Of a stretch of DNA of 64,000 nt, positions 668-9,014 are shown piece after piece. Source of the stretch: Paenibacillus protaetiae (GTDB lineage: Bacteria > Bacillota > Bacilli > Paenibacillales > Paenibacillaceae); NCBI RefSeq assembly GCF_004135365.1, contig NZ_CP035492.1, forward strand, positions 1,116,001 through 1,180,000, read 5' to 3'. The notes under the pieces were generated by a model. It was given only the letters and a program-made list of their open reading frames with translations, was not told where the DNA came from and made no database searches. Position 1 is the stretch's first letter, and every line of letters begins with the position of its first letter. The translations under genes were made by a program, and so were the position numbers.

Positions 668-680
668 TAGCGATACAACG

Positions 681-705
681 AAAGCCGCCTATGAGGCGGC
701 TTTTG
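681..705 (+). terminator. Rho-independent terminator of cwlJ
   Basis: AAAGCCGCCT, loop ATG, AGGCGGCTTTT forms a short GC-rich hairpin followed by a T-rich tail 14 bases after the cwlJ stop codon. Confidence 0.85.
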
Positions 706-911
706 TTATTCCATGCAGGTGTATGAGCGCTAGACCAAACCACCTCTTTGAAGCTGACGGAGAGGTCATTGATTATTTGTTAACCTTTTATTATAAAAAT
801 AGGTTTACAATTAAAAAGCGCCGAATTATAATTCAAAACATTAGCTATGAACGTGATATACAACATTCATTGCTTGATTTCTACATAGGTCAACGTGCGC
901 CGGTGCAAGGG

Positions 912-941: not shown

Positions 942-2423
942 ATGAATCTGGCAGTACCCATACTAAACCGTGCTTCGCGGGAACCGGACCGAATCGCTAT
1001 TTCACACGGGCAGAGGCAGCTTACCTATTCCCAGCTCATAGAACGGGCCCAAAAAATCGCTTATGGACTCCGGAAATCCGCCTCAACTCGTGATAAGATC
1101 GTAATCCTATCCGGCAACCGAATAGAGTTTGCTGAAGTTTTTATAGGCGCTGTATATGCCGGTTATGTGCCTGTTCTATTAGATCCTGCGTGGAATCCGC
1201 TCCAAGTAAACCAAATAATCCGGCAATGTCAGCCGAAAGCCATTTTTTGCGAGCAGCGCTTTACCGGGATGATAGCCGGGGAACACAGCCATATCGAACG
1301 TTTCGTTTTCCCTAATGAACAGCCCGGGAACTATGAGCAGTGGCTGACTGCATGCAAGCCCGATGCTGTTACGGAACGAGCCAGCGAAACTTTATTTATT
1401 GGTTTTACATCAGGGACGACAGGCGTTCCGAAAGGATATATGCGATCTCATGACTCCTGGATTCAAAGCTTTGAAGTAACCAACGCGGCTTTCCAGCTCG
1501 ATATAATGGAGCATGTATCGGCACCCGGCCCTTTTGTGCATTCCCTCTCGTTATTTGCGCTGGTGCAATCCTTGTACAGCGGTGCAACTTTTCATATTTT
1601 GCAAAAATTTGATGCCGCTCAAGTACTCGCGTTGTGCTCAGCGGTTCCGAATATGATTATGTTCGTCGTCCCCTCTATGATTGATTCGCTGCTGCAATCG
1701 GCTGTTCCCGGAACAACATCCATTCGCGCGTTAATTAGTTCAGGCGGGACATGGTCCAAGCAGTCGAAGCGACGATGCCGACAAGTATTTGCCGGTGCTA
1801 AGCTGTATGAATATTACGGCTCGTCCGAAGCGAGTTATATTAGTTACATGGATGTTACTGGGGAAGAGAAGGCCGGTTCCTTGGGAAGACCTTTCGATGG
1901 AGTGGAAATATCGATTCGGGACGAGCAGTTTCAGGAGGTGCCTGCGGGCACGACCGGTCAGTTGTACGTTCGCAGCGCTATGATTTTCGATGGCTACTAT
2001 CAGCTGCCCGATGAGACAAAAAACGTTTTTCAGGATGGCTGGCTTCGGACAGGCGACTACATGTATACCGATGGCGATCACTACCTTTATTTGGCCGGCC
2101 GTTCACAAAATATGATCAAAACAGGCGGCCTGAAGGTGTTCCCGGAAGAAGTGGAAGCGGTATTGCGGCGTATGCCAAATGTTCGGGAGGCCATGGTTTG
2201 CGGCACGCCTCACGATCATTGGGGAGAACAGGTAACGGCCATTATTCAATGGCGCGATGGACAGCCGTCCGCTTTAGAAGAAGTGAAGCGATTTTGCGCT
2301 AACCGTCTGCCCGGCTATAAGACGCCCAAAGAACTTATCACCGTGGATGAATTCATCTATACGAATAGCGGTAAAGTGGCGCGCCGCATCATGATAGATC
2401 ATATGAAAAGAGTGATATTATGA
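942..2423 (+). CDS. Acyl-CoA synthetase/ligase, class I adenylate-forming
   Basis: The 493-residue protein should activate a carboxylic acid as acyl-AMP and transfer it to CoA, supplying the primer or substrate for the enzymes downstream. The family motifs are intact: P-loop TSGTTGVPKG at about 156-165, YYGSSE at 291-296, TGD at 370-372, hinge region GRSQNMIKTGG at 387-396, and the C-terminal catalytic lysine in NSGK (K478). Translation starts at ATG 942 behind GAAGGTG. It overlaps the thiolase gene by four bases (ATGA), which implies coupling. Ligase followed by thiolase recalls the B. subtilis yhfT-yhfS pair. Chain-length preference cannot be read from the sequence. Confidence 0.88.
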   Translation: MNLAVPILNRASREPDRIAISHGQRQLTYSQLIERAQKIAYGLRKSASTRDKIVILSGNRIEFAEVFIGAVYAGYVPVLLDPAWNPLQVNQIIRQCQPKAIFCEQRFTGMIAGEHSHIERFVFPNEQPGNYEQWLTACKPDAVTERASETLFIGFTSGTTGVPKGYMRSHDSWIQSFEVTNAAFQLDIMEHVSAPGPFVHSLSLFALVQSLYSGATFHILQKFDAAQVLALCSAVPNMIMFVVPSMIDSLLQSAVPGTTSIRALISSGGTWSKQSKRRCRQVFAGAKLYEYYGSSEASYISYMDVTGEEKAGSLGRPFDGVEISIRDEQFQEVPAGTTGQLYVRSAMIFDGYYQLPDETKNVFQDGWLRTGDYMYTDGDHYLYLAGRSQNMIKTGGLKVFPEEVEAVLRRMPNVREAMVCGTPHDHWGEQVTAIIQWRDGQPSALEEVKRFCANRLPGYKTPKELITVDEFIYTNSGKVARRIMIDHMKRVIL

Positions 2424-3571
2424 CAGATGCGGTTATTGTCATGGCTGTACGAACACCGGTAGGCAAAATCGGGGGAGCGTTAAGCCGGTTTGAGCCGGAG
2501 GCGCTTCTCACTCCGCTTATTCGTCATATGATATCGGAAACGAACTTGCCTGGCGGCATGATTGATGATGTCATCATCGGAAATGTAGTAGGACCGGGAG
2601 GAAACCTTGCACGTGTTGCAGCTCTTGAAGCCGGGCTCCCCGTAACCGTACCTGGTGTAACGGTTGACCGACAGTGCGCTTCAGGTCTTGAAGCCATTAA
2701 CATGGCTGCCCGGCTTATCCAAAGCGGAGCCGGTGAAATATACTTGGCAGGCGGAGCCGAGAGCACAAGCCGTGCACCTTGGAAAATGTATAAGCCGCAG
2801 ACGCTGGCGGGAACCCCTCAAATATATACGCGTGCCCGCTTTACACCAAGCGCCTATGGCGATCCGGATATGGGGGCGGCAGCGGAAAATGTAGCCCGGG
2901 CTTTTGCGATCTCAAGGGAAGCACAGGATCTGTATGCTTTAGACAGCCATCAGAAAGCGGTTCGTTCGCGGGAAACAGGGCGGTTCCGGCGGGAAATTGT
3001 ACCGCTTCAAGCGGATGGAATTCAGATCACCGAAGATGAATGCCCAAGAGCAGATACAAGCTTGGAAAAACTGCAAAAGCTGCAGCCTGTGTTTCTTGAG
3101 CACGGCACCGTAACAGCCGGCAATGCTTGTCCCGTCAACGATGGAGCTGCGCTTGTCCTCATCATGTCGCGCGAGAAATGCAAGGAGCTGCATTTGACAC
3201 CTGTATTGCGGTTTGTAGATGCGCAAGCAGCAGGAGTAAATCCGCATTATTTAGGAATAGGTCCTGTTCCCGCTATTCGCCGCCTGCTAAATCGTTACCA
3301 GCTGACAGTGGACGACCTGGACATCGTGGAATTTAATGAAGCGTTCGCTTCGCAGGTGCTGGCCTCTTTGCAGCAGCTTCAGCTTTCAACCGATAAGGTT
3401 AATATCGGCGGGGGAGCCATCGCATTAGGCCACCCCTATGGTGCATCCGGCGCGATCTTAATTACGCGCTTATATTCGGAAATGCTGCGGAAACCCTTTA
3501 AACGCGGCATCGCTGCACTAGGTATCGGCGGGGGAATGGGGCTTGCAACCTTGGTGGAGGCAGTCCGATGA
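2420..3571 (+). CDS. Thiolase-family enzyme lacking the CxG cysteine
   Basis: This is a 383-residue thiolase-fold protein of the acetyl-CoA C-acetyltransferase type, which normally condenses or cleaves acyl-CoA thioesters. The acyl-accepting cysteine is present (DRQCASG, C86), as are NEAF (306-309) and the GHP histidine (H338). The C-terminal CxG motif, whose cysteine acts as the general acid/base in classical thiolases, reads A-L-G-I-G-G-G, so the expected Cys is Gly368. Condensing activity is therefore uncertain; the protein may work with altered chemistry, a partner or a dedicated substrate. It overlaps the ligase by four bases and the next gene by four bases. The cluster position resembles B. 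subtilis yhfS. Confidence 0.85.
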   Translation: MTDAVIVMAVRTPVGKIGGALSRFEPEALLTPLIRHMISETNLPGGMIDDVIIGNVVGPGGNLARVAALEAGLPVTVPGVTVDRQCASGLEAINMAARLIQSGAGEIYLAGGAESTSRAPWKMYKPQTLAGTPQIYTRARFTPSAYGDPDMGAAAENVARAFAISREAQDLYALDSHQKAVRSRETGRFRREIVPLQADGIQITEDECPRADTSLEKLQKLQPVFLEHGTVTAGNACPVNDGAALVLIMSREKCKELHLTPVLRFVDAQAAGVNPHYLGIGPVPAIRRLLNRYQLTVDDLDIVEFNEAFASQVLASLQQLQLSTDKVNIGGGAIALGHPYGASGAILITRLYSEMLRKPFKRGIAALGIGGGMGLATLVEAVR

Positions 3572-3948
3572 ACAAGATTACGTTCCCGTATCATCTCACC
3601 GCAGCATCTATTATTGCGTATGCACACAGCATCGAAGCTCCCTTACAGCGGATAGGAGAAGCATTGATCGCACCATCAACGATGCCGGTTGCTTTTTGGA
3701 AAATCGCGGATGCCCCTTGGCTTGATAAAGGAAAAACATTCCTTCACGGCAGCCAGTCATTTACATACAAGGCTCCCCTAAAAGCGGGCGCTCATCTTGT
3801 TTGCGAGTTAGAGCTGACCAAAACTGAAAAAAAGACCGGCAGAAGCAGAAATTTGATCCTGTATACCCATGTGCTTACATGCACTTGCGGTGGCGAACGG
3901 ATCGTAACAGCAGAAACGGTATTAATAGACGCAGGTGATCCATTATGA
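3568..3948 (+). CDS. FAS1-type (MaoC N-terminal-like) dehydratase subunit
   Basis: The 126-residue protein looks like the non-catalytic half of a hot-dog-fold (R)-hydroxyacyl dehydratase (MaoC_dehydrat_N/FAS1_DH type, compare mycobacterial HadA or HadC). I see no catalytic Asp-His pair; such subunits usually form the acyl-chain tunnel and pair with a MaoC subunit. The GSQSFTYKAPLKAGAHLV segment matches the central strands of the fold. ATG 3568 overlaps the thiolase stop, and the gene overlaps the catalytic MaoC gene by four bases, which suits a 1:1 complex. The family call rests on pattern and context and is less certain than for its neighbours. Confidence 0.7.
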   Translation: MNKITFPYHLTAASIIAYAHSIEAPLQRIGEALIAPSTMPVAFWKIADAPWLDKGKTFLHGSQSFTYKAPLKAGAHLVCELELTKTEKKTGRSRNLILYTHVLTCTCGGERIVTAETVLIDAGDPL

Positions 3949-4295
3949 AAAAAAAGATAACGGTAGAAGCGATCCGGCACTATGCCGATGCTTCCAAAGA
4001 TCCGGCCGCAATTCATATTGATCCTGATGCCGCAAGGAAAGCCGGGTTCGAGCGTCCCATTGCACAGGGCATGTATATTATGGGGTTGGCCCATTCCATG
4101 TATTTGAGCAGCAATCCGGCACAGTGGATCAAATCCGCTCGAATGACTTTTCTAAGTCCGCTTTTGTCGGAAACAGCCGTACACTTTAAATTTGAATCTA
4201 TGGGCGTAGATATCGAAGTTACGGTCACGGGTGAAAACGGTGAAGTTGCAGCGAGAGGATGTTTCTCGGTGGAAGGAGGTCCGGACAGTGAATAA
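3945..4295 (+). CDS. MaoC-like (R)-specific enoyl hydratase/3-hydroxyacyl dehydratase, catalytic subunit
   Basis: This 116-residue single hot-dog protein carries the hydratase-2 signature as SKDPAAIHID near its N-terminus. Asp19 and His24 keep the five-residue spacing of the catalytic dyad, although the usual glycine before the aspartate is lysine. PIAQGMYIMG follows in the position of the conserved H-G-M helix, but with Gln in place of His. With the preceding subunit it probably makes a HadAB-like heterodimer that interconverts 3-hydroxyacyl and trans-2-enoyl thioesters. It overlaps both neighbours (four bases upstream, eight downstream). Confidence 0.8.
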   Translation: MKKKITVEAIRHYADASKDPAAIHIDPDAARKAGFERPIAQGMYIMGLAHSMYLSSNPAQWIKSARMTFLSPLLSETAVHFKFESMGVDIEVTVTGENGEVAARGCFSVEGGPDSE

Positions 4296-5118
4296 GACCG
4301 TCGTCATTACCGGCGCCAGCAGAGGTATTGGACGCAGCGTCGCTCTGCAGCTTGCAGCAAGCGGATATCGGGTCGCTGTTAATGGCACGCAGCAATCCAG
4401 CATTAGCTTTGTCGTGGAGGAGATCCGGCAGCATGGGGGAGAAGCGTCGGGTTATTGTGCAAACGTGGCAGACCCTGCACAGGTTACAGCGATGATGGAT
4501 GCGGTTGTCATGAAATACGGCTCGATTGATGTTCTGATTCATAACGCCGGAATTGTGCAGGATCGCAAATGCATTCATATGTCGGACGAAGAATGGAAAT
4601 CTGTGATGGATGTCCATTTGAACGGCGCTTTTTATTGCATTCGGCGGGCGCTGCCTTATATGCCTGATCAAGGCGGCGACATTCTGTTGTTAACTTCAAC
4701 AGCCGGGTTGAATGGCTCTGTTGGACAGGTGAACTACAGCGCCGCCAAAGCCGGAATGCTGGGGATGGTGTGGACGCTGGCGGAGGAGCTCCGGCATCGC
4801 CATATCCGGATCAATGCCATTGCCCCTGCTGCTTTGACGGATATGACCCGCCCTGTCATCGAGCATTTGAAGGAAAAATATGCCCGCCGCCATGAACCGT
4901 TTCCAGCCTATTGGGAGATTGGCCATTCGGATGATGTTGCACATTTTATTCATATTTTGCTGGAGCAGGCCGATGAAGATTTGACAGGCGAAATATTCGG
5001 GATAAATGGCTCCATGGCGACGCAGTGGCAGAAACCATCAAGAGCCTGGTCGATGAACGATCCGGCGGCTTTTTTCAAGAATCGGAAAGAAAGGCAAGCC
5101 GAACTTCATATCCCGTGA
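4288..5118 (+). CDS. SDR-family 3-ketoacyl reductase (FabG-like)
   Basis: I start this gene at GTG 4288, seven bases after a perfect GGAAGGAGGT at 4271-4280, giving 276 residues; an ATG at 4231 in the same frame has no such site. The protein has the Rossmann motif TGASRGIG (8-15), NAG (86-88) and the catalytic set Ser137, Tyr150 and Lys154 (YSAAK). The C-terminus is longer than in FabG and includes a region ending in NGSMATQW before a basic tail. It should reduce a 3-ketoacyl thioester with NADPH. It overlaps the MaoC gene, so it belongs to the same transcript. Confidence 0.85.
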   Translation: MNKTVVITGASRGIGRSVALQLAASGYRVAVNGTQQSSISFVVEEIRQHGGEASGYCANVADPAQVTAMMDAVVMKYGSIDVLIHNAGIVQDRKCIHMSDEEWKSVMDVHLNGAFYCIRRALPYMPDQGGDILLLTSTAGLNGSVGQVNYSAAKAGMLGMVWTLAEELRHRHIRINAIAPAALTDMTRPVIEHLKEKYARRHEPFPAYWEIGHSDDVAHFIHILLEQADEDLTGEIFGINGSMATQWQKPSRAWSMNDPAAFFKNRKERQAELHIP

Positions 5119-5185
5119 CTTTGCTGCAGTCCATCATGGGCCGAGCTTAGCCTGACCATCTGACCATCTATGGAGGAAGAAGGAT

Positions 5186-6151
5186 ATGAATTGGAGCACA
5201 AGATTAACTGAATTACTGCATATCCAATATCCCATTATCCAAGGCGGACTTGCCTACTTGGGGTATGCAGAGCTTGCAGCAGCCGTGTCCCTTGCCGGCG
5301 GCCTGGGTCAGGTTACAGCGATGAGCCTTCCACATGCAGAACTGCTGCGGGAGGAAATTGCTCGCACCCGCGCCTTGACGGACAAACCGTTCGGAGTGAA
5401 TTTGGCTTTGGGCATGCATCATCATGACGTCAAAGACCGGCTGAATATAATCCTGGAGGAGCAAGTGCCGGTAGTGTCCATTACAGGCGGGGATCCGACG
5501 GAAGTGCTGAACAGGCTGGGGCCAACTAATGTAAAAACGTTAGTGCTCGTCTCCTCGCGCAGGCAAGCACAGAAAGCTGAACAGCTAGGCGCGTCAGCTG
5601 TTATTGCAGTTGGCCATGAAGGAGGCGGACACCTGGGACGTGCCGGTGTAGGAACGATGGTATTGGTCCCCAGCATAGTCGATGCGGTACAAATCCCCGT
5701 GATTGCCGCAGGCGGAATCGGAGATGGACGCGGATGGATGGCTGCCCATGCGCTTGGTGCAGAAGGGATTCTGATGGGAACCCGTTTTATCGCGACGCAG
5801 GAATGTGTCCATGCGTCTGACAGCTATAAACAGGCTTTGGTTAGAAGTTCAGAGTCAGACACAACTATTATAAAAGCATCCATCGGTTTTCCGGCAAGGG
5901 TGCTGCGAAATGGTTATGCGGACCATATATTAGCCGTGGAACGCGCTGCTCCGGATTATGAAGCGCTTAAGCACCTGATTAGCGGCGAGGCGAATAAACG
6001 CTGGGTTCATGACGGAATAGAAGAAGAAGGCTTTGGCTGGGCGGGGCAGGCGACTGGCTTTATTCAAGATATTCCCACGGTGTCCGAGCTGATGCATAGG
6101 ATGGTTAAAGAGGCGGAGCGAATCAAAAACCTTTGGAGAGGATTCGAGTGA
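5186..6151 (+). CDS. FMN-dependent nitronate monooxygenase/FabK-like enoyl reductase
   Basis: The 321-residue TIM-barrel flavoprotein has PIIQGG near residue 15, GHEGGGHLGR at 143-152 and the phosphate-binding AAGGIGDGRG followed by GAEGILMGTRF. These are shared by FabK enoyl-ACP reductases and nitronate monooxygenases, and sequence alone does not separate them. In this operon, after ligase, thiolase, dehydratase pair and ketoreductase, an enoyl-thioester reductase is the missing step, so the FabK-like role is favoured. ATG 5186 follows GGAGGAAGAAGG. A 67-base gap separates it from the reductase, with no terminator seen. Confidence 0.82.
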   Translation: MNWSTRLTELLHIQYPIIQGGLAYLGYAELAAAVSLAGGLGQVTAMSLPHAELLREEIARTRALTDKPFGVNLALGMHHHDVKDRLNIILEEQVPVVSITGGDPTEVLNRLGPTNVKTLVLVSSRRQAQKAEQLGASAVIAVGHEGGGHLGRAGVGTMVLVPSIVDAVQIPVIAAGGIGDGRGWMAAHALGAEGILMGTRFIATQECVHASDSYKQALVRSSESDTTIIKASIGFPARVLRNGYADHILAVERAAPDYEALKHLISGEANKRWVHDGIEEEGFGWAGQATGFIQDIPTVSELMHRMVKEAERIKNLWRGFE

Positions 6152-6711: not shown

Positions 6712-7292
6712 TTATTTCTTCAGAATCCCCTCGAAAAAAACTTGGCAGGAGATCAGCAGATGGTCGCCAAAGCTCTCCTTCGTCGTCCCCATGACCCAAT
6801 TGAGCATAACGCCAAGGAACATTTGCAAAGCAATATGGGCCATCGTCTCAGCAGGGATCGTTGTCGTAAACTCACCGGACTGCTGGCCTTTTTCGAAGAT
6901 CGGAACCATACAGTCTATAACATAACAGAAACCTTCCTTGCTTTCCTCGATATTTTGCTGATTAGCCAGCATCCCTTGGATAGACAACAGCAGCATGCTG
7001 TGATGCTCGGCCATCGAATCGCCGAGTGTTTTAATTACCGCAAGAAAACGGGGGCATAAGGGCCGGGTTTATCCTTCAAATTGACTAGCTCATCTAACGC
7101 AATAATCTTATCAAGCTTCCCCCGGACTTCTTCTTTCGTTTTGAAATAGTTGAAAAAGGTGCCTTTAGCTACACCTGCAGCTTCTGTAATTTGAGCGACG
7201 GTGGTGGCTTCAAAGCCTTGTTCGGCAAACAAGCACATCGCCGCTTCAAGTATGCGGTTTTTGGTCTCGAGTTTTTTCTCTTCCCGTTTCAC
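6712..7292 (-). pseudogene. TetR-family repressor split by a one-base frameshift
   Basis: The N-terminal part (GTG 7292, eight bases after GGAGGA) holds a typical TetR helix-turn-helix ending in TFFNYFKTKEEV. The frame stops at about 7035. The ligand-binding half continues in another frame (LAVIKTLGDSMAEHHS onward) to a stop at 6712. One extra base around the A4/G5 runs at 7045-7054 would join them into a 193-residue protein. It diverges from the DHA2 exporter gene, which it most likely represses. If the frameshift is real the repressor is lost and the exporter should be derepressed; an assembly error is also possible. Confidence 0.85.
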
Positions 7293-7483
7293 AGCAATCA
7301 TCCTCCGTTATTGCCTACAGTATAGCATAACCGGTCGAAAAATGGGCCTGAACATTTAATGACCGACAGTTCAATTTTATTTAAAAAATGAAGCAAATCA
7401 CGGTCTTATTTTTCATATATATCGCAAGAAAACGCTTTATTATAAACGTTTTATTAAAGTTGACCATCGGTATAAAATTAAGT

Positions 7484-7544: not shown

Positions 7545-9014
7545 ATGACAAGTAATCAAGCAGTACCGGACGCAAGCACATTTACGATCAGGTCGATCAT
7601 TGCGCCGCTCATTGCCGTTATTGTCGGCTTATTTATGGTTATTCTGGACGGGACCGCGATGAACGTGGCATTAAGCGGGTTCATGAAGGAGTTCGGGAAG
7701 GAGCTGTCCGTTGTACAATGGACGACGACAGGTTATGCACTGGCGCAAGCGGCGGTTATTCCGCTGGCCGGCTGGCTGTCGGACCGTTTTGGGGCGAAAC
7801 GGATATTCCTCGTGTCTGTAGGGATGTTTACGGCCGGCTCCTTGCTTTGCGCTTTTGCCGGCAATATCGAGATGTTGATTTTATTTCGCGTTATTCAAGG
7901 TCTTGGCGGCGGCATGGTGATGCCCATTGCATTTGCAATCATTTATAAACTAAGCCCTCCTGAGAAGGTAGGCTCGGTGATGGGGATGCTGGGCATCCCG
8001 GTTCTGATCGCTCCAGTTTTGGGTCCGGTAGTTGCAGGCGCGCTGATCGATTACGCATCGTGGCACTGGATCTTCCTTATCAATATTCCGCTTGGCATCA
8101 TCGGGGTTATTGCCGGCATGCGGACGCTGCCAAACATCGAGCGCCAATCCGTGCAATCGCTGGATATACCGGGTATTATTTTTGGACCGCTTGCCTTTGC
8201 CGCCTTGTCTTATGGAGTAAGTGAAGGAGGAACGAGCTGGACGTCGGTTCAAACCTTGTCCGGCCTTATTGTCGGGGCAGCCGCTTTGCTTATTTTCATC
8301 TTTGTTGAGCTTCGCAGCAAGCAGCCGCTTCTTGAACTGCGGGTATTCCGTTCGAGAGATTTCAGTAAAGGGATTGTCGTCCAGTGGTTCACTCAAATTG
8401 CGCTAATGGGCACGTTCTTCCTCATTCCGATGCTGCTTATCCAAGTACAGGGACATACGGCGACAGAATCTGGCGTCATTATGCTTCCTCAAGCGATTGC
8501 TTCTGCGATCTTTATGCCAATTGGCGGACGCCTGTTTGACCGGATCGGGGCAAGGCCTCTTCTGGTAATCGGGTTAGGTATTGTTGGCGTCGCTTCATAC
8601 ATGCTGTCCAATATTTCCTCCGCTGACGGACTGTCGCTTATTCTGATCACTTCCGGGCTGTTTGGCGTGGGAATGGGACTTTCCATGATGCCGATGAATA
8701 CGTACCTGATTCAGGCATCTCCGCCTAGCCTGGTTGGACGCGTAACCTCGCTTACTTCGGCAGCTCAGCAGGTTATGACATCTTTTGCAATTGCAGGCCT
8801 CAGCACTTATTTGACTACAAAGATTAAAGATGCTTCTGCGCCGGGGCAGGCGCCTTCCGTAGATGCGTTGTATCATTCCTACGGCGAAACGTTCCTTGTT
8901 GTTGCCGGTATTGCCGTTGCAGGCGTATTGCTTGGCTTCCTGTTGCGCAAACCGGTCAGATCGCCGGGCGATGAAGGCCATGTCGCGGAAGCGCCGATGA
9001 TGATGGGGCACTAG
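7545..9014 (+). CDS. DHA2-family MFS drug exporter (14 TM, EmrB/LmrB-like)
   Basis: The 489-residue polytopic protein is a proton-coupled multidrug exporter of the DHA2 family. Visible signatures are the first helix motif LDGTAMNVAL, motif A GWLSDRFGAKR, motif B in LILFRVIQGLGGGMVMP and motif C LIAPVLGPVVAGALID, followed by the WHWIFLINIPLG block typical of the EmrB/QacA subfamily. Fourteen hydrophobic segments fit the length. It starts at ATG 7545 after GGGGGA, behind a strong promoter with a TetR-type operator. Substrates cannot be predicted. Confidence 0.92.
   Translation: MTSNQAVPDASTFTIRSIIAPLIAVIVGLFMVILDGTAMNVALSGFMKEFGKELSVVQWTTTGYALAQAAVIPLAGWLSDRFGAKRIFLVSVGMFTAGSLLCAFAGNIEMLILFRVIQGLGGGMVMPIAFAIIYKLSPPEKVGSVMGMLGIPVLIAPVLGPVVAGALIDYASWHWIFLINIPLGIIGVIAGMRTLPNIERQSVQSLDIPGIIFGPLAFAALSYGVSEGGTSWTSVQTLSGLIVGAAALLIFIFVELRSKQPLLELRVFRSRDFSKGIVVQWFTQIALMGTFFLIPMLLIQVQGHTATESGVIMLPQAIASAIFMPIGGRLFDRIGARPLLVIGLGIVGVASYMLSNISSADGLSLILITSGLFGVGMGLSMMPMNTYLIQASPPSLVGRVTSLTSAAQQVMTSFAIAGLSTYLTTKIKDASAPGQAPSVDALYHSYGETFLVVAGIAVAGVLLGFLLRKPVRSPGDEGHVAEAPMMMGH

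Follow-up and report, generated by a model that had tools for sequence, protein, structure and literature searches.

The 64,000-nucleotide stretch of Paenibacillus protaetiae DNA analysed here (contig NZ_CP035492.1; hereafter the window) carries at positions 942-6151 six open reading frames (ORFs) on the same, forward strand, which together resemble a compact acyl-chain-extending operon. The first gene (942..2423) encodes an AMP-forming acyl-coenzyme A (CoA) ligase, YhfT/PRK07638-like by family and domain searches and a PDB sequence search and modelled by AlphaFold with a pLDDT of 90.9, and the second (2420..3571) a YhfS/PRK06690-like thiolase, assigned by family and domain searches and alignment (pLDDT 91.6). 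Two dehydratase halves follow, both recognised by family and domain searches and motif alignment: a non-catalytic-looking half with a FAS1_DH_region domain (DHa, 3568..3948) and a catalytic MaoC-type hydratase half with a D-x4-H motif (DHb, 3945..4295). A beta-ketoacyl reductase (KR) of the short-chain dehydrogenase/reductase (SDR) family comes next (4288..5118; family and domain searches, motif), with a GTG start at 4288 chosen on the support of homologues over the start at 4231 in the ORF list, and the last gene (5186..6151) encodes a FabK-like flavin mononucleotide (FMN) enoyl reductase (ER), whose top family is FabK (TIGR03151) with 284 bits, under the cut-off of 453. The Pfam domains (AMP-binding, Thiolase_N/C, FAS1_DH_region, MaoC, adh_short and NMO), the ORFs and the family matches all agree with the enzyme set given in an initial annotation of this DNA. 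The overlapping arrangement that it described was also found, with 4 bp shared at the ligase/thiolase, thiolase/DHa and DHa/DHb junctions and 8 bp between DHb and KR when the GTG start is used, while KR and ER are instead separated by a gap of 67 bp. No ORF for an acyl carrier protein (ACP) or a beta-ketoacyl synthase (KAS) lies among the six genes at 942-6151, and CoA is, as had been proposed, the likely carrier. Judged by family match only, a complete set of reverse beta-oxidation enzymes is present, which supports the reading of the operon as a CoA-linked, reductive, reverse-beta-oxidation-like chain-extension set.

The region in front of the operon contains three features of possible regulatory interest. 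An intrinsic-terminator-like hairpin with a T-rich tail (677..708, forward strand; fold -22 kcal/mol, z -6.24) stands between the operon and the upstream gene cwlJ, which is of the Hydrolase_2/SleB-CwlJ type; none of 200 shuffles of the stretch 672-712 folds as well, although a simpler scan had not picked the hairpin up. At 777..810 a pattern match, TTGTTAACC-N16-GGTTTACAA, marks a putative operator for the biotin repressor BirA, near-perfect against the Firmicutes BirA consensus. The pattern TTGTWAACN{14,18}GKTWACAA has its sole match in the 4.23-Mb genome at this site, on both strands as it is a palindrome. The same pattern reversed, used as control, likewise gives one match per strand; a single match in the genome is thus obtainable by chance, and it is the position of the operator that counts. 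That position is shared with a sigma-70/A-like promoter on the forward strand (TTTACA-17-TATAAT, 804..832; 11 of 12 consensus matches, the best of nine found), the -35 element of which falls within the right half of the operator. Chance would give 7.5 sigma-70-type sites of this kind in the region, so the significance lies in the overlap with the operator rather than in the match by itself; an operator lying over the -35 element is placed where a repressor would act. The only copy of bioY in the host genome also has an operator, with one mismatch, just upstream, and the genome encodes a BirA with a match to a helix-turn-helix model.

The operon and its operator are shared with relatives. Among 148 sampled genomes of the family, 14 contained an orthologue of the thiolase (E 1e-100 or better): 11, including the host, had a close form of the operon with thiolase identities of at least 71%, and three a looser form at 62-63%. 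Fifteen distinct Paenibacillaceae operons (the host's, L052-L061 and L089-L092) were searched between 350 bp ahead of the first gene and 60 bp inside it, allowing at most one mismatch and with the expectation taken from dinucleotide shuffles, and the operator was found at 12 of them, the host's included, against 0.01 expected. In a comparison of these neighbourhoods the set of the initial annotation was recovered with all six enzymes in 12 of the 15 operons (the ligase of L053 being split in two frames) and proved incomplete in L061, L090 and L092. The split frame occurs in Paenibacillus sacheonensis (L053:9487-10981, L088:8510-10001) and represents sequencing error or decay; L088 and L053 are one assembly, and both were included in the tree discussed below. 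Spurious frames among the gene calls of high-GC loci were excluded.

In several relatives the module is joined to genes of biotin transport. Three Paenibacillaceae loci (L055, L060 and L091) have a unit in the order operator-bioY-ligase-thiolase-DHa-DHb-KR-ecfA-ecfA'-ecfT-ER, and L058 has the same order from bioY to ER, with no operator detected and with BioY and a CbiQ/EcfT domain confirmed by a Pfam check. In genomes G109 and G133 a gene with a BirA-type helix-turn-helix (HTH) lies about 0.3 kb from the bioY of the operon, on the opposite strand. The looser group (L062-L064) is organised as bioY-ecfA-ecfA'-ecfT-amidohydrolase-ligase-thiolase-KR. A pattern scan seeded with the operon thiolases gave at least 575 loci, and in the best 80 of these, for which adjacency rates are biased by that choice, BioY lay no more than 5 kb from the thiolase in 49, while 59 had a related ligase no more than 1 kb away from it. 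These 80 named loci cover Bacillota, Actinomycetota, Pseudomonadota and Cyanobacteriota, with carriers ranging from Bacillota to Sinorhizobium, Streptomyces, Nocardia, Rhodococcus, Arthrobacter and Leptolyngbya. The adjacency of BioY, ligase and thiolase recurs in Bacillales, rhizobia, Azospirillum, actinobacteria and a cyanobacterium, and BioY is adjacent (within 8 kb) in 56 of 93 tree rows. An Azospirillum lipoferum plasmid carries EcfA-EcfT-BioY-AMP-binding-thiolase in its public annotation, and two Rhizobium plasmids have thioesterase-ligase-thiolase with a zinc-alcohol dehydrogenase and an SDR nearby and no BioY in the stretch examined. Nine of ten member genomes without an adjacent BioY have one elsewhere, a figure that says little since the same holds for 15 of 20 outgroup genomes. 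That the link to the transporter persists in phyla with other biotin regulators speaks for a substrate that is transported rather than for a mere starvation response.

Several further genes adjoin the module in these relatives. The amidohydrolase between ecfT and the ligase is adenine deaminase-like and present throughout the looser group (L062:10743-12461, L063:5670-7397, L064:5783-7522), where it might process biotin amides or a cyclic ureide. A glycosyltransferase resembling EryCIII/UDPGT follows KR in the same three loci (L062:5924-7147, L063:11054-12307, L064:11093-12319). Oxidoreductases of the zinc-alcohol-dehydrogenase-like medium-chain dehydrogenase/reductase (MDR) family adjoin the module at L062:15693-16676, L064:1605-2588, L103:11565-12533, L171:4540-5508 and L172:4540-5508, directly upstream of the unit in L062 and L064; no FabK-like gene was seen at these loci, and the oxidoreductase is a possible non-orthologous enoyl reductase. 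In Staphylococcus cornubiensis and S. intermedius an ORF of about 139 amino acids follows ligase and thiolase (L104:11067-11486 and L105:11067); it has no Pfam match in L104, looks hot-dog-like by eye and is perhaps a dehydratase half.

The host itself is by its gene content a biotin auxotroph. No bioB over the cut-off was detected in its genome (two weak matches, the best with E 5.4e-8), and bioD and bioW had no match in it. Across the sample, bioB over the cut-off was found in 77 of the 137 genomes that do not have the close operon and in none of the 11 that do (Fisher 2e-4, uncorrected for kinship). Since both the host and the kin sharing its close operon are without bioB, a precursor of the biotin ring is unlikely as the product, and it is unlikely that the host uses the operon to make biotin de novo.

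The individual enzymes diverge from the families they resemble most. The best NCBIfam family of the ligase is PRK07638, yet with 393 bits against a cut-off of 518, and in a fold comparison of its AlphaFold model the nearest matches were MatB and MenE. MatB-like malonate activation was considered, as both the sequence search of the PDB and the fold comparison put malonyl-CoA synthetase first, but was set aside at an identity of about 25%. An SG-x-K motif characterises the ligase family, with the lysine present in 38 of 41 sequences and in none of five other ligases of the host. In the dehydratase pair, D-x4-H is present in DHb of the window and in 13 of 13 aligned relatives, while DHa of the window is without it and retains H-x-x-Q, a motif likewise found in 13 of 13 relatives. 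The initial annotation compared this pair to mycobacterial HadAB, a likeness that holds at the level of domains (two hot-dog halves, one with D-x4-H) and fails by score, with 24.2 bits against the HadA cut-off of 180 and 26.5 bits against the HadB cut-off of 203; the operon also differs from that system in having no ACP gene. The SDR carries the YxxxK motif. For ER the best PDB match is FabK (7l00), and 6 of its 21 PDB matches are named enoyl reductases, most of the others being nitronate monooxygenase or 2-nitropropane dioxygenase.

The thiolase departs from the canonical active site. It scores 434 bits against the PRK06690 cut-off of 498, and that family is outscored by the general TIGR01930. 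Three canonical residues are kept (C86, the nucleophile, N306 of the NEAF motif and H338), the cysteine of the CxG motif is replaced by G368, and a cysteine is found at position 237. For comparison the window thiolase was aligned with those of 93 loci; removal of the partial L122 left 93 of the 94 sequences, of which 73 are members and 20 form an outgroup that includes L165, ligase-linked and outside the family. The cysteine at the CxG site (368) was absent in all 73 members, which have Gly, Ser or Ala, and 70 of them had a cysteine at 237, in the GNAC loop; the outgroup had Ser at 237 and the usual CxG cysteine in 20 of 20. Both Marinococcus sequences and that of Domibacillus are the three exceptions with Ser at 237. 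Going by Zoogloea numbering (S247), C237 presumably faces the active site. Nine members (eight Nocardiaceae and Nigerium) have, besides C237, a cysteine at 367, one residue before the CxG site; N306 is found in 64 of 73 members and Thr in nine, the same nine in the alignment rows shown, and the swap is less clear-cut there. These actinobacterial Cys-367 members (L138, L139, L142, L143, L146, L149, L152, L154 and L158) represent a third active-site arrangement. Three thiolases encoded on plasmids of Azospirillum and Rhizobium fit the cysteine swap. In the tree a single clade with full support holds all 20 outgroup thiolases, and the swap is probably one old event, since retained, so that its Fisher value is no test of independent events. 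The CxG cysteine of the Zoogloea thiolase (C378) is described as the proton-abstracting base (PMC3406046). In SCP2-thiolases, too, the CxG cysteine is lost, and the cysteine of an HDCF motif is used instead (PMC7682436). The window thiolase shares with these a second catalytic cysteine outside the CxG motif and differs in keeping NEAF and in having its conserved cysteine in the GNAC loop.

A bioY-yhfT-yhfS order under BirA regulation occurs in Bacillus subtilis, and the BirA regulon is said to have been studied by Rodionov in 2002. In Staphylococcus aureus BirA acts with biotin as a repressor of yhfS-yhfT, to whose promoter it binds (PMC6391492; PMC7235819), the former paper reporting gel shifts and, with an Escherichia coli reporter, half-repression at a biotin concentration of 10 nM; a review reports the same BirA control in B. 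subtilis and S. aureus (PMC11089781). In the available parts of these three papers the products are called putative homologues and no function is stated. Ligase and thiolase under BirA/biotin control are what the operon of the window has in common with yhfS-yhfT, from which it differs in its four additional enzymes, completing a reductive cycle, and in scores under the PRK07638 and PRK06690 cut-offs. With BioMNY and other energy-coupling factor (ECF) biotin transporter operons it is connected by the BioY, EcfA and EcfT genes in the units of relatives, while the window operon itself is without a transporter gene and the host bioY lies elsewhere. Reverse beta-oxidation offers the likeness of ligase, thiolase, KR, hydratase and ER, presumably acting on CoA thioesters; the biotin operator sets the window operon apart, as does, by family, its combination of an R-type hydratase and KR like those of fatty acid synthesis with a FabK-like ER in place of the S-type FadB and acyl-CoA dehydrogenase of reverse beta-oxidation. 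Among the papers listed by the literature searches, which covered few subscription journals and only portions of papers, none was found to describe the full operon, bacterial bisnorbiotin salvage or the moved cysteine, and the available part of a 2026 paper on biotin-related antibiotics (PMC13336041) contained no such enzymes. BirA control of the yhfT-yhfS pair is already known; neither the complete pathway nor the swap of the cysteine was found in these searches.

Taken together, the results suggest that the operon responds to a shortage of biotin; very probably it belongs to biotin homeostasis as a member of the biotin regulon. The reading we prefer, with a probability of about 0.42, is that of a BirA-repressed biotin-scavenging operon whose substrate is biotin with a shortened side chain. 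At low biotin BirA would leave the operator at 777-810 and the operon would be transcribed. The ligase would convert an acid to its CoA thioester, the thiolase would add two carbons from acetyl-CoA, the SDR would reduce the product, the DHa/DHb pair would dehydrate it and the FabK-like enzyme would reduce it again. The acid would be biotin with its valeryl side chain shortened by beta-oxidation (bisnorbiotin or tetranorbiotin), entering through BioY, and one or two turns would yield biotinyl-CoA and, by hydrolysis, usable biotin. Shortened biotin is suggested by the conjunction of an imported acid extended by two carbons, biotin control, BioY next door in relatives and no biotin synthesis. We infer BirA repression in this strain and the elongating direction of flux; a FabK-like ER in 12 of the 15 Paenibacillaceae units, with MDR oxidoreductases beside some others, argues for the reductive direction. 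The thioesterase in the two Rhizobium plasmid sets, with an SDR nearby, also counts in favour of the reading. Ligase and thiolase are the constant core, which suits the activation and extension of an imported acid, and as type II fatty-acid synthesis would not supply these two steps, the optional character of the others would be explained. In human serum, bisnorbiotin is reported at 21-591 pmol/l, a range comparable to the 140-356 pmol/l of biotin (PMC9106636). More tentatively, and with some doubt, the module may represent a vitamin-repair pathway of bacteria more widely, in which BioY imports shortened biotin, CoA-linked two-carbon elongation by way of the relocated-cysteine thiolase rebuilds biotin, and yhfT-yhfS is the widespread core.

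A number of observations weigh against this scavenging of shortened biotin, the substrate being its least secured part. The second-best NCBIfam family of the ligase is a long-chain fatty-acid ligase, and the motif lysine is replaced by T270 in the window protein, by T also in L052 and by R in L100. The host match to the BirA-type HTH model TIGR00122 (E 4.8e-13, 51 bits) is below the cut-off of 70, which was passed by none of the 14 genomes and by two of 14 controls, and the only host bioY lies about 0.2 Mb from the operon, so that none is found within 8 kb. No operator with up to two mismatches was present at three of the 15 Paenibacillaceae operons (L057, L058 and L059), none was found at the three loci of the looser group, and in other Bacillales it occurred at 2 of 19 with at most one mismatch and at 9 of 19 with at most two (0.19 expected); a BioR-type box was not found in four rhizobial loci. 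Within the sequence stretches compared, L090 is without ER, L061 without ER and both dehydratase halves, and L092 also without KR, and many distant carriers show ligase and thiolase only. Finally, bioB is present in 33 of 47 named carriers searched, so the module is not limited to auxotrophs.

An unlikely but serious alternative is biotin-sparing acyl synthesis, in which biotin shortage disables acetyl-CoA carboxylase and a derepressed, acetyl-CoA-based and malonyl-CoA-independent elongation provides membrane lipids, the ligase activating scavenged fatty acids. Signal and enzymes would be the same, and a full cycle without ACP or KAS, the strong tie to biotin control and the many biotin auxotrophs among the carriers all suit the idea. 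So does the ligase itself, whose top NCBIfam hits include fatty-acyl ligase models and whose fold comparison has a mycobacterial fatty-acyl-CoA synthetase in 26th place. It does not, however, require the tie to BioY across phyla; the conserved core consists of ligase and thiolase rather than the reductive steps, and the nearest ligase folds are those of the small-acid ligases MatB and MenE, though at about 25% identity. The family lysine that the five other host ligases are without would speak in the same direction, but it is missing from the window protein as well. Slightly less probable again is the salvage by the same CoA chemistry of another imported biotin vitamer, such as an amide, an ester or a form with a longer or branched side chain, and not bisnorbiotin. 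The linkage evidence serves it equally and the amidohydrolase in three of three looser loci would fit the processing of amides, but thiolase and enoyl reductase point to lengthening of a carbon chain and the window operon is without an amidohydrolase. Far less credible is the synthesis of pimelate, as pimeloyl-CoA, for de novo biotin: the cycle would reach pimeloyl-CoA from malonyl-CoA in two turns or from glutaryl-CoA in one, BirA control and the bioB-containing carriers agree with the idea, and 74 gut species are reported to be without a known pimeloyl source (PMC6593275), but the precursor would be useless in the host and its close-operon kin, given the bioB, bioD and bioW results above, and for the host it was rejected unless ring-forming enzymes of another kind exist. 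The least probable is the sporulation-specific lipid or polyketide of the initial annotation, which drew on the cwlJ-type neighbour and sigma-E-like -10 elements and took no account of the BirA operator: the gene is indeed upstream, but it is separated by the terminator-like hairpin and not conserved beside the operon, which has a sigma-A-like promoter and a BirA operator of its own and relatives joined to a biotin transporter, and ligase-thiolase carriers include Staphylococcus, rhizobia and actinobacteria.

Among loci L052-L064 and L088-L167 a CwlJ hit was found in Metabacillus L094 only, and in none of the other Paenibacillaceae loci. This gene of Metabacillus iocasae (L094:14392-14883), a point in favour of the sporulation reading, is CwlJ-like with 49% identity to that of the window and lies about 1.7 kb downstream of a bioY-ligase-thiolase unit. 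On the other side of the window operon, beyond a DUF6953 gene, are a TetR-type fragment (7035-7301) and an EmrB/DHA2-type transporter of the major facilitator superfamily (7545-9011), an ordinary efflux pair.

If the scavenging of shortened biotin is true, soil-dwelling and host-associated bacteria that are auxotrophic for biotin can draw on a supply of it that has gone unrecognised. The salvage variants given for gut bacteria are desthiobiotin, diaminopelargonic acid (DAPA) and keto-aminopelargonic acid (KAPA) (PMC6593275), and predictions of auxotrophy that count only these as salvaged vitamers would need revision. The thiolase would offer a natural test of moving the Claisen base within the thiolase fold, and the operon gathers in one unit the steps that are missing beside the ligase-thiolase pair of the BirA regulon.

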